This document shows, one piece after another, positions 4,034 to 13,698 of a DNA stretch of 37,842 nucleotides; position 1 is the stretch's first letter, and every line of letters begins with the position of its first letter. The notes under the pieces were generated by a model, which had not been told where the DNA came from, did no database searches, and worked only from the letters and a program-made list of their open reading frames with translations. A program made the position numbers and the translations under genes. The DNA is from a virus. The DNA lies in IMG/VR virus record IMGVR_UViG_3300031857_000558, positions 1 to 37,842 of that record. One strand, 5' to 3'.

Positions 4034-4062
4034 TTGATTTTTTTGCGAAAGTGTAGTATAAT
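4034..4062 (+). promoter_or_regulatory. Sigma70-type promoter for uvsY-uvsW, with a dyad centred on the -10
   Basis: TTGATT (4034-4039), a 17 bp spacer and a perfect TATAAT (4057-4062) lie 24 bases before the uvsY start. The -10 is enclosed in the inverted repeat GTGTAG-N8-CTACAC (4051-4070), which could be an operator or a hairpin at the 5' end of the transcript. Confidence 0.85.
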
Positions 4063-4086: not shown

Positions 4087-4524
4087 ATGAACTTAGAAGA
4101 CTTGCAAACAATGTGGGATGAAGACTGTGGGATAGATGATAACTATCTCGGAGAGCATGCCACCAAAACTCCCAAACTCCACGCAAAGTATGTACGTCAT
4201 TTAGTACAGGCTAAACTCAAACTGACTAAAGTGCAGTCAGATTATAACCTATTGCGTAAAGCAAAGTTTCGTTACTATCGTGGTGAGATGTCACGTGATG
4301 AATTAACAGACTTGGGTTGGAGTCAATGGCAAGGTGTCAAGCCACTTAAGAATGAGATGGATGAATTTCTTACTGGTGACGATGATCTAAATACATTGAG
4401 GGTCAAAGTTGATTACCTTGAGACCATGATTTATTTCCTTGAGTCTGTTCTATCGCAAATCAAAGCCAGAGACTGGCAATTGAAGACTGCTGTAGAATGG
4501 AAGAAATTTTTAGCAGGAATGTAG
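4087..4524 (+). CDS. uvsY: Recombination mediator protein UvsY
   Basis: UvsY loads the UvsX recombinase onto single-stranded DNA coated with gp32. The 145-residue product starts MNLEDLQ, like T4 UvsY (MRLEDLQ, 137 residues). It keeps the family's helical layout, with a central Lys-rich region around KAKFRYYRG (T4 has KARLDYYSG) and a C-terminal segment SQIKARDWQLK resembling T4 AIKSRGFAIK. The chosen ATG has a GAGG ribosome site 6 bases upstream. An in-frame TTG at 4075 lies before that site and is unlikely. The gene leads a uvsY-uvsW pair as in T4 and has its own strong promoter. Confidence 0.92.
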   Translation: MNLEDLQTMWDEDCGIDDNYLGEHATKTPKLHAKYVRHLVQAKLKLTKVQSDYNLLRKAKFRYYRGEMSRDELTDLGWSQWQGVKPLKNEMDEFLTGDDDLNTLRVKVDYLETMIYFLESVLSQIKARDWQLKTAVEWKKFLAGM

Positions 4525-6008
4525 TGAGCACAGTTACAATAGAAAAACTAGATGAAGTCTATGTTAGAGTTTTCTCTGATCCGTCAATTGAACAAGAACT
4601 AGCAGAGTTCTTCACCTATGAATATCCAGGCGCAAGATTTACTCCCCAATACCGAGCAAGGTTATGGGACGGTAAAGTGCGCCTGTATGACCAAGTAAGA
4701 AAGACACTTTACGTAGGTCTTATTGAATACGTTGAACAGTTCTGTGAACGCAACGATTATTTACTTACTTGGAAAACTGACTTTAATAATTCAAATGGCA
4801 TTACTCATGAAGACGTTGAGAAATTTGCCAAATGGTTAGAACCACATGGACGTGGTAAACCTATTGAAATCCGTGACTATCAAGTCGAAGCAGTAAAGAC
4901 TGCTCTTGATAAAGAACGCACCCTACTTCTTTCTCCCACTGCATCTGGCAAGTCGTTTATCATTTACACGACACTACGCTGGCACTTAGAACACAAACGC
5001 AAAGCAATCATTATTGTACCAACTACATCTTTAGTTGAACAGTTGTATACTGACTTTGAAGATTACTCTAGTGTAAATGGCTGGAACGTGGACAAACACT
5101 GTCAGAAGTTGTACAGTGGCTTTACCAAAGACATTACAAAGAACGTATTGATTACAACATGGCAATCAGTATACCTGCAACCTAAATCTTGGTTTGCTCA
5201 GTTCGATGTAATCTTTGGAGATGAAGCGCATCAGTTCAAAGCAAAGTCCTTAACTACTGTTATGGAAAAGATGGACAAGATTCGCTATCGTATTGGTACT
5301 ACTGGAACGCTAGATAATAAGAAGGTTCATCGTTTGGTTCTTGAGGGTATTTTTGGACCGATGCATCGTGTTACAACTACAAAGCAGTTGATGGAAACCC
5401 AAAAGCTGGCGCAGTTAAACATTACTTGCATTGTGTTAAAGTATGAAGAAGAACTACGCAAAGCAAGAAAGAATAATACTTACCAAGATGAGATGGACTT
5501 TATAGTTGGGCACTATCCACGCAATAAGTTTATTCGCAATCTTGCAGTAAAGAGTTCAGGTAACACTTTGGTTCTTTTTCAGTATGTTGAAAAACATGGA
5601 AAGATTTTACATGATATGATTAAAGACAAAGTACATGAAGATAGAAAAATCTTCTTTGTGTATGGTGGTACAGAAACAACTGACCGAGAAGCTATCCGTC
5701 ATATTACAGAGGGTGAAGAAGATGCTATCATTATTGCTAGCTTTGGAACATTCTCAACAGGAATTAACATACCTTCTATCGAAAACATTATTTTTGCATC
5801 ACCATCAAAGTCAAAAATTAGAAACCTACAAAGTATTGGTAGGGGATTGAGATTGAAAGATGGTAAAACACATTGCAATCTTTATGATCTTGCTGACGAT
5901 CTTCATTGGAAGTCTTGGAAGAATCACACACTCAATCATGCAGCAGAACGATATAAAACGTATGCTGAAGAACAGTTTGATTTAAAACTAGTGGAAGTAA
6001 ATATATGA
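4524..6008 (+). CDS. uvsW: UvsW RNA-DNA and DNA helicase (SF2)
   Basis: UvsW unwinds R-loops and branched DNA, shutting off origin-dependent replication in favour of recombination-dependent replication. Motifs seen are the N-terminal substrate-binding domain (FTYEYPGARF, then RARLWDGKVRLYD), Walker A SPTASGKS near residue 137, DEAH near residue 233 and a C-terminal helicase motif VI region QSIGRGLRLK. I prefer the GTG at 4524, which overlaps the uvsY stop. It follows an AGGA sequence and gives an N-terminus that aligns well with T4 UvsW. The in-frame ATG at 4497 would add nine residues inside uvsY. The product is 494 residues from the GTG (T4 UvsW is about 500). Confidence 0.95.
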   Translation: MSTVTIEKLDEVYVRVFSDPSIEQELAEFFTYEYPGARFTPQYRARLWDGKVRLYDQVRKTLYVGLIEYVEQFCERNDYLLTWKTDFNNSNGITHEDVEKFAKWLEPHGRGKPIEIRDYQVEAVKTALDKERTLLLSPTASGKSFIIYTTLRWHLEHKRKAIIIVPTTSLVEQLYTDFEDYSSVNGWNVDKHCQKLYSGFTKDITKNVLITTWQSVYLQPKSWFAQFDVIFGDEAHQFKAKSLTTVMEKMDKIRYRIGTTGTLDNKKVHRLVLEGIFGPMHRVTTTKQLMETQKLAQLNITCIVLKYEEELRKARKNNTYQDEMDFIVGHYPRNKFIRNLAVKSSGNTLVLFQYVEKHGKILHDMIKDKVHEDRKIFFVYGGTETTDREAIRHITEGEEDAIIIASFGTFSTGINIPSIENIIFASPSKSKIRNLQSIGRGLRLKDGKTHCNLYDLADDLHWKSWKNHTLNHAAERYKTYAEEQFDLKLVEVNI

Positions 6009-6481
6009 TTGATTACGTTTTTATTAAACTTACAACTGGTGAGCAGTTGATGGCAATGTTAGAGGCAGAAGACACATCGCATGTTGCAATTTCTCACCCA
6101 ATGGTAATACGTCTTACGCCTGTAGACGTTGGTGATGGAAGAATGCATGAGAACGTAACTGCCACCCCATTTTGTAAATTCTCAGAAGGGGATGATTTTA
6201 TTCTTCCAAAGACTAGCATCATGTTTATTAAACAACTGAGTAGCACTATCGTCAATCATTACAAGTTAGTTGTTGAGCAATATGAACATGCTACGCTTCG
6301 CACCAATCATGCACAAGAGAAAAGAAAAGTCTCTTGGGCTGGGGAGGAAGAGGAGATGACTGTTGAAGAAATTCGCAAACGTATTGACATGCTTGAGTCT
6401 ATCTTTGCTGGAGACAGGACACAAGAAGCAGAGGAAGAAGCCGAAAAGAACTTCATCGAAGGAAACGATACACTACACTAA
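6005..6481 (+). CDS. Small beta-barrel (Sm-like) protein with acidic helical tail, function unknown
   Basis: The start overlaps the uvsW stop by four bases, so the two are translationally coupled. The first 90 of 158 residues form a beta pattern (VFIKLTTGEQLMAMLEAED..VAISHPMVIRL) resembling the small SH3/Sm-like barrels that many T4-like phages encode near replication genes. The last 50 residues are highly charged and helical (WAGEEEEM...EEEAEKN). A shorter relative is encoded at 20737-21024, with the same K-L-x2-G-x2-L opening and x-x-P-x-x-I turn. An RNA or protein adaptor role is possible but unproven. Confidence 0.8.
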   Translation: MIDYVFIKLTTGEQLMAMLEAEDTSHVAISHPMVIRLTPVDVGDGRMHENVTATPFCKFSEGDDFILPKTSIMFIKQLSSTIVNHYKLVVEQYEHATLRTNHAQEKRKVSWAGEEEEMTVEEIRKRIDMLESIFAGDRTQEAEEEAEKNFIEGNDTLH

Positions 6482-6508
6482 GTAGTCATCATCAACCCTA
6501 ACACAGTT

Positions 6509-6537
6509 AGTATACACCTTCGTCAAATAAAAGACAA
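6509..6537 (-). promoter_or_regulatory. Minus-strand sigma70-type promoter, head to head with the gp55 promoter
   Basis: Read on the minus strand, this is TTGTCT, a 17 bp spacer and TATACT, nearly identical to the plus-strand promoter at 6574 (same TTGTCTTTTAT start and same GGTGTATACT end). Transcription would start near 6502 and run leftward, antisense to the Sm-like gene and uvsW. No minus-strand gene follows, so the product would be antisense RNA. Confidence 0.6.
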
Positions 6538-6573
6538 ATCTATTTTATTCTGCAAATTGCATGTAAGATAAAT

Positions 6574-6602
6574 TTGTCTTTTATCACATTATGGTGTATA
6601 CT
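6574..6602 (+). promoter_or_regulatory. Sigma70-type promoter for gene 55
   Basis: TTGTCT (6574-6579), a 17 bp spacer and TATACT (6597-6602), 37 bases before the gp55 start. Together with the minus-strand copy at 6509-6537 it forms a symmetric inverted repeat (6511-6518/6593-6600 and 6527-6539/6572-6584). Confidence 0.75.
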
Positions 6603-6639: not shown

Positions 6640-7203
6640 ATGGCACACTACGTAAACAACGCTGACTTTTTAGCAGCAATCAAAGAATATAAAAAACAAG
6701 TTCTTGATGCTGAAGCAGCAGGGTTGGAAAAACCGCAGGTAAGTAACTACATCGGGGAATGCATTTTAAAAATTGCTAATCACCTTTCGTATAAACCCAA
6801 CTTCATCAACTACTCATACAAAGACGATATGATCCTTGATGGTATTGAGAATTGCATTCAGTACATTGATAATTTTGATCCTGATAAGTCTAGCAATCCC
6901 TTTGCTTACTTCACACAGATTATTTTTTATGCCTTCCTACGACGTATTGCCAAAGAAAAGAAACAATCCTACATTAAGAACAGACTTATCAAGGAAATGC
7001 CTTTTGAAGCATTTGAACTGCAAGAACAAGACGAAGATGGAACATTCCACAACGCATACTTAGATTATATGCAGTTTAACCAAAGTGATCTCGATGATTA
7101 CATGGATAAGAAAACAGCTGCAAAAAAGAAAAAGAACACTAGTTCTCTTGATGAATTTATAGGTGACCCAGATGAGCCAATCAGTCCGACAACTACTCCG
7201 TGA
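6640..7203 (+). CDS. 55: RNA polymerase sigma factor for late transcription (T4 gp55-like)
   Basis: This is a divergent sigma70-family protein that directs host RNA polymerase to phage late promoters, with the sliding clamp gp45 as activator. The 187-residue product (T4 gp55 is 185) opens AHYVNNADFLAAIKEYKKQ, matching T4's YVNNKELLQAIIDWK. It keeps the sigma region 2 core DMILDGIENCIQYIDNFDPDKSSNPFAYFTQI, broken here into recognisable blocks DGIEN, NFD and NPFAYFTQ. The C-terminal region is acidic and then Pro/Thr-rich. An AGAGGAAAG ribosome site precedes the ATG. Its 3' end overlaps the next gene by 32 bases. Confidence 0.95.
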   Translation: MAHYVNNADFLAAIKEYKKQVLDAEAAGLEKPQVSNYIGECILKIANHLSYKPNFINYSYKDDMILDGIENCIQYIDNFDPDKSSNPFAYFTQIIFYAFLRRIAKEKKQSYIKNRLIKEMPFEAFELQEQDEDGTFHNAYLDYMQFNQSDLDDYMDKKTAAKKKKNTSSLDEFIGDPDEPISPTTTP

Positions 7204-11185: not shown

Positions 11186-11217
11186 TCTACAGGGGAAAAT
11201 TCTCTTGTTGTCTTTTA

Positions 11218-13673: not shown

Positions 13674-13698
13674 TCTGTAGGGTTATTATACGAGGGTG

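Follow-up and report, generated by a model that had tools for sequence, protein, structure and literature searches.

A conserved divergent promoter pair beside the late sigma factor gene 55 of T4-like phages and its putative antisense transcript

Gene 55 region and its inverted repeat

The stretch of DNA analysed here (the window) is a 37.8-kb virus record of 37,842 nt. Its genes uvsY, uvsW, Sm-like gene, gene 55 and a nuclease pair of the 46/47 type follow each other in an order similar to the one in Kyanoviridae. Capsid and tail genes and the uvsY-uvsW-Sm-like genes lie to the left of a promoter pair in front of gene 55, and genes 55, 47 and 46 together with replication genes lie to its right (Table 1). 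The pair is located where the late cluster meets the replication cluster, and its leftward member points into the Sm-like gene, uvsW and uvsY. As had been noted in a preliminary description of this DNA, no minus-strand gene lies near the leftward promoter on its downstream side. Cultured relatives have none there either, nor did inspection by eye reveal a conserved leftward reading frame for a small protein.

Table 1. Features around the gene 55 promoter region of the window
Feature	Position	Strand	Description
uvsW helicase gene	4497..6008	+	Pfam UvsW_N, ResIII; PHROG DNA helicase
Sm-like protein gene	6005..6481	+	First gene to which a leftward transcript would be antisense
Start region of putative leftward transcript, conserved	6489..6508	-	Predicted +1 6502; TGTTAGGGTTGAT; from conservation profile
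Leftward sigma70-type promoter	6509..6537	-	-35 TTGTCT (6537-6532), 17-nt spacer, -10 TATACT (6514-6509)
AT-rich middle between -35 boxes	6538..6573	.	36 bp; carries TGCAAATTGCA at 6551-6561
Gene 55 rightward promoter	6574..6602	+	-35 TTGTCT, 17-nt spacer, -10 TATACT; predicted +1 6609
Gene 55, late sigma factor	6640..7203	+	PHROG 234, E 2e-61

It had been proposed that the 6005 gene and uvsW are both late-acting genes as in T4. The first assignment was not borne out: the profile of the 6005-gene family matches PDB 3BY7 (E 5e-14), which makes the product an Sm-like protein, and the homologues that the window protein finds at E<0.01 come from Synechococcus phages only. PF16243 is matched by 17 of the 32 members of the family, the window protein alone being under the Pfam cut-off. 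As to uvsW, late-type NATAAATA motifs are present upstream at 1024, 1031 and 3477, but a sigma70-like promoter is found at 4034, before uvsY, and therefore uvsW need not be purely late and may be expressed earlier. In the Sm-like gene, synonymous sites are more conserved than expected over the final ~10 codons (1.43 observed/expected); inside the gene no synonymous or codon constraint that would be a sign of base pairing was detected. The T-x-H C-terminal tail of the Sm-like protein (6440-6481) is common to phages of the window's clade, Pelagibacter phages and Methylophilales phages, with a C-terminal half that is otherwise divergent where the tail is kept; the cyanophage versions are without the tail.

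The longest inverted repeat of the whole window has arms of 39 nt (6509-6547 and 6564-6602) that are 79% complementary. Each arm contains the 29-mer TTGTCTTTTAT-N8-GGTGTATACT with 0 mismatches, at 6509-6537 (-) and 6574-6602 (+), and a third copy with 1 mismatch occurs at 11208 (+), while chance would give 0.00 matches even with 3 mismatches allowed. The shared start and end motifs, the 17-bp spacers, the 8-base gaps and the predicted start sites at 6502 (-) and 6609 (+) are thus as first described. The term "head-to-head" used for the pair has to be replaced: since the -35 boxes lie inside and the -10 boxes outside, the two promoters are divergent (back to back). In the window they are 23/29 identical to each other, and the hairpin that the repeat could form is predicted to be very stable (z -9.5).

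Conservation and spacing of the two promoters

The preliminary description did not cover how well the pair is conserved, how the leftward promoter is phased around the helix with that of gene 55, or where the pair lies between late and early genes. We examined the interval from the upstream gene to gene 55 in 80 IMG/VR relatives found by gp55 and in 240 further relatives found through the gp55 of cyanophages, Pelagibacter phages and Methylophilales phages; for sigma70 scoring the relatives were reduced to 136 non-redundant lineages. Both promoters are intact in 34/34 non-redundant lineages of the window's clade, whose alignment keeps a TT(G/T) -35, an xAxxxT -10 and a spacer of always 17 nt on each strand. 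The best minus-strand sigma70 score has a mean of 11.9 over the 136 lineages, close to that of the gene 55 promoter (11.7) and compared to 5.3 in adjacent coding DNA of equal length. The leftward promoter is also present in cyanophages, Pelagibacter phages and Methylophilales-type phages: in these three groups beyond the window's clade, 97/102 lineages score >=10 (27/27 cyanophage-type, 38/39 Pelagibacter-type and 32/36 Melnitz-type). The window's own clade scores lower, with a leftward median of 8.0 against the E. coli consensus. In 50 kb each of S-SM1, HTVC008M and Syn9 the leftward site is the top minus-strand sigma70 site, and P-HM2 carries TTGACA-17-TACACT at the same location. The leftward starts are predicted near NC_015282:119317 in S-SM1, KC465899:80260 in HTVC008M, NC_008296:123698 in Syn9 and NC_015284:120709 in P-HM2. 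With conserved hexamers within the 16-18 nt separation of such promoters and a spacer of variable sequence, the leftward element is of the sigma70 type, and as far as sequence can tell it has every hallmark of a working promoter. It is conserved family-wide, and any RNA started from it would, as proposed earlier, run antisense to both uvsW and the 6005 gene.

The mirror symmetry is much less conserved than the promoters themselves. The identity between paired promoters has a lineage median of 59%, near-perfect symmetry is restricted to the window phage and its nearest relative, and the hairpin is weaker to absent across five relatives. Because symmetry and hairpin are so poorly kept, we regard the repeat as a by-product of two promoters of the same class. 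The possibility that it serves as an operator or RNA hairpin, with the leftward promoter match incidental, is very remote and was rejected: the stable fold in the window and the TGCA pairs near the dyad (14/34 lineages) would suit it, but both promoters are conserved and symmetry and fold are not, and cyanophage promoters overlap without this repeat.

The -35 variants of the two promoters covary, with 3/5000 shuffles scoring as high when kinship is not corrected for. Across relatives the distance from one -35 hexamer to the other takes values about a helical turn apart, with clusters at 14, 24-25, 35-36 and 45 bases. At 10.5 bp the mean phase is 3.3 in the Pelagibacter group, 3.8 in the window and Melnitz groups alike and 4.1 in cyanophages, a common phase for all four that puts the two promoters at a constant angle to each other around the DNA. 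Taking unique values per group without cyanophages, the phasing reaches R 0.58 (p about 8e-7), compared to R 0.10 and 0.11 for the control distances (promoter to flanking gene), which were computed with the same code. On the gp55 tree a minimum of 43 changes of spacing class is required. In 31 phylogenetically independent pairs the differences in spacing fall near whole turns (V-test u 3.71, or 4.14 without cyanophages), and the same test on the control distances gives u -0.71 and -0.95. Cyanophage spacings fit a 9-bp period better than 10.5, and their promoters mostly overlap (-35 spacing -16 to +2), so that the two cannot both be occupied at once. The phasing was found during the analysis and not predicted beforehand, and it is to be taken as exploratory. 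Whole-turn spacing is a clean and testable sign of two divergent promoters working as one unit, and the two promoters here are probably one coupled unit. In the groups inspected the middle between the -35 boxes is rich in A and T and contains A/T tracts, a composition that shared alpha-CTD (UP) sites would fit. Mid-way between the promoters (6551-6561 in the window) a TGCA-N-TGCA dyad is found in 14/34 lineages compared to 0.06 expected by shuffling, kinship not corrected; it is a possible regulator site.

Start region of the predicted leftward transcript and its reuse elsewhere

The first ~20 nt of the predicted leftward transcript are the most conserved non-coding part of the region, and in the conservation profile a block AAC-nn-TGTnAGGGTT follows directly after the leftward promoter. 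In a pattern scan of viral contigs this start block was immediately upstream of gene 55 in 87/120; most of the other occurrences bear the same promoter, and several head ordinary genes. Complete cyanophage genomes contain the promoter and start block as a module 2 or 3 times, once leftward at gene 55, the other copies preceding CP12, SSM1_093 or Syn9 gp88. A profile of the module built with the window left out scores 56.2 at the leftward site and 8.5 at the next best site in the window. Because the module heads ordinary genes elsewhere, the leftward element is a member of a recurring promoter module that has no gene behind it here, and the match of both promoter and start region to the gene-heading module suggests that it probably makes an antisense RNA.

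Two further observations concern this region. The form TTGACA-N17-TATAATAAC-nn-TGTnAGGGTT stands before ordinary genes, CP12 among them, in L439, L376, L386 and L365 and in S-SM1 at 14.3 and 49.0 kb. A Pelagibacter-phage group (L084, L170-L249) has a small palindrome a short way downstream of the leftward -10, with the TGT of the predicted +1 at its centre; its arms covary between lineages (mean stem 3.79 vs 2.77, 0/1000 shuffles), and half of it would fall outside the leftward RNA.

Possible functions of the leftward promoter

We consider it fairly probable that the locus is a coupled divergent sigma70 pair at the late/replication border which, early in infection, gives gene 55 mRNA rightward and a non-coding antisense RNA leftward. 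Host RNA polymerase would start at ~6609 on the gene 55 mRNA and at ~6502 on a transcript running through the 3' end of the late cluster, both promoters presumably firing early. The leftward RNA, or the act of transcription itself, may hold down the Sm-like gene and, given a long enough transcript, uvsW as the next target; both would be relieved when the gp55-polymerase takes over. A delay of UvsW, as first suggested, is a plausible role of the leftward promoter. The sigma70-like promoter before uvsY, which suggests that uvsW may be transcribed early as well, and the lower leftward scores in the window's clade count against this picture. Coupling would probably come about through two polymerases on one helix face that share the AT-rich middle (UP-element/alpha-CTD), or through a regulator bound there. 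No leftward terminator is conserved, as terminator-like sites number 6 in the 136 lineages and are scattered; RNAalifold predicts no pairs for the leftward RNA in the window's clade, and the RNA has no Rfam match. Since conserved terminator, structure and codon constraint are all missing, no sequence feature points to an action of the RNA itself, and the RNA, if acting, may work by transcriptional interference or simple base pairing. More tentatively, and with the balance tipping against it, the phased pair could be an ancient switch of the T4-like superfamily, in which same-face polymerases with shared upstream sites start the mRNA of the late sigma factor together with an antisense RNA, the latter keeping the last genes of the late cluster (Sm-like gene, uvsW and uvsY) silent until late transcription sets in.

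The strongest competing explanation, although we think it rather unlikely, is that the leftward promoter acts in cis on gene 55 by competition, polymerase loading or supercoiling and so times the late switch, the antisense RNA being a by-product. Helical phasing couples both sites, the overlapping promoters of cyanophages cannot be occupied simultaneously, and the antisense target is unconstrained beyond its last codons, all of which fit action in cis. However, the two promoters lie anywhere from overlapping to >50 bp apart, which excludes simple competition as the function common to all, and the leftward promoter keeps a full start region that mere occupancy would not need.

A clearly less probable alternative is a short leftward transcript that acts in trans as a small RNA, perhaps together with the Sm-like protein encoded next to it. 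The strong conservation of its first ~20 nt, the extra synonymous conservation in the last ~10 Sm-like codons and the Sm-like neighbour itself are in its favour, but such an RNA would be without terminator, conserved structure or Rfam match. The idea of a dedicated small RNA marked by a particular 5' tag was rejected, as protein-coding transcripts elsewhere begin with this start block too. Transcripts from promoters are used at T4 origins and removed by UvsW, and the AT-rich promoter region adjoins uvsW; nevertheless, that the leftward transcript primes DNA replication at a promoter-type origin, as at T4 oriF/oriG, is hardly to be believed, since the GC skew does not turn at the cluster border either of the window or of HTVC008M, and a replication origin was rejected on this ground.

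The antisense transcript from a coupled pair, which we favor, has partial parallels. CfrI is described as an antisense RNA of the T4-like cyanophage S-PM2 that was proposed to regulate the genes it covers (Millard 2010, cited through PMC2984593 and PMC5931967). An antisense RNA with a proposed effect on the genes opposite it is what the two would have in common; CfrI covers psbA and a homing endonuclease gene, whereas the putative transcript here would cover uvsW and the Sm-like gene, has its predicted start next to the promoter of gene 55 and comes from an element that the whole family conserves. For T4 gene 32, transcription in both sense and antisense direction is reported (Belin 1987, as cited in PMC3014915); this is another gene, and we know of no conserved divergent pair with gene 55. 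Antisense reads have been counted in infection RNA-seq of P-HM2 (PMC5082946). Bacterial bidirectional promoters are described as transcribing divergently from pseudo-symmetrical sites at which binding of one polymerase excludes the other (PMC12825309, PMC10268837). Divergent transcription, here predicted, and an inverted-repeat-like promoter region are common to both, but the window has two complete promoters with 36 bp between the -35 boxes; overlap with mutual exclusion is not seen there, overlap being found only in most cyanophages. In the literature searched, outside of which lie the Syn9 transcriptome (10.1038/ismej.2015.210) and the original CfrI paper, no description of an antisense promoter at the side of gene 55 was found, and the conserved promoter points to a regulatory device for which we found no description.

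A large family of phages from oceans and fresh water has retained the leftward promoter. If the reading is true, the antisense promoter that phages infecting cyanobacteria, SAR11 and methylotrophs carry at one and the same position would give these viruses, which rank with the most abundant of the sea, a common early-to-late control point. Sigma70-type early promoters of T4-like cyanophages are read by the host polymerase (PMC2984593). The leftward element is of the same type and belongs to a recurring module with a leader, but here the module is without a gene behind it and is aimed into the late cluster. The window also carries promoters of a second class, TTGACTTTAATTC-N8-GTATAAT, at 13697, 13953, 15161, 21212, 21963 and 36912 (+); this class is distinct from the TTGTCTTTTAT-N8-GGTGTATACT class of 6509, 6574 and 11208 and is perhaps of a different time class.
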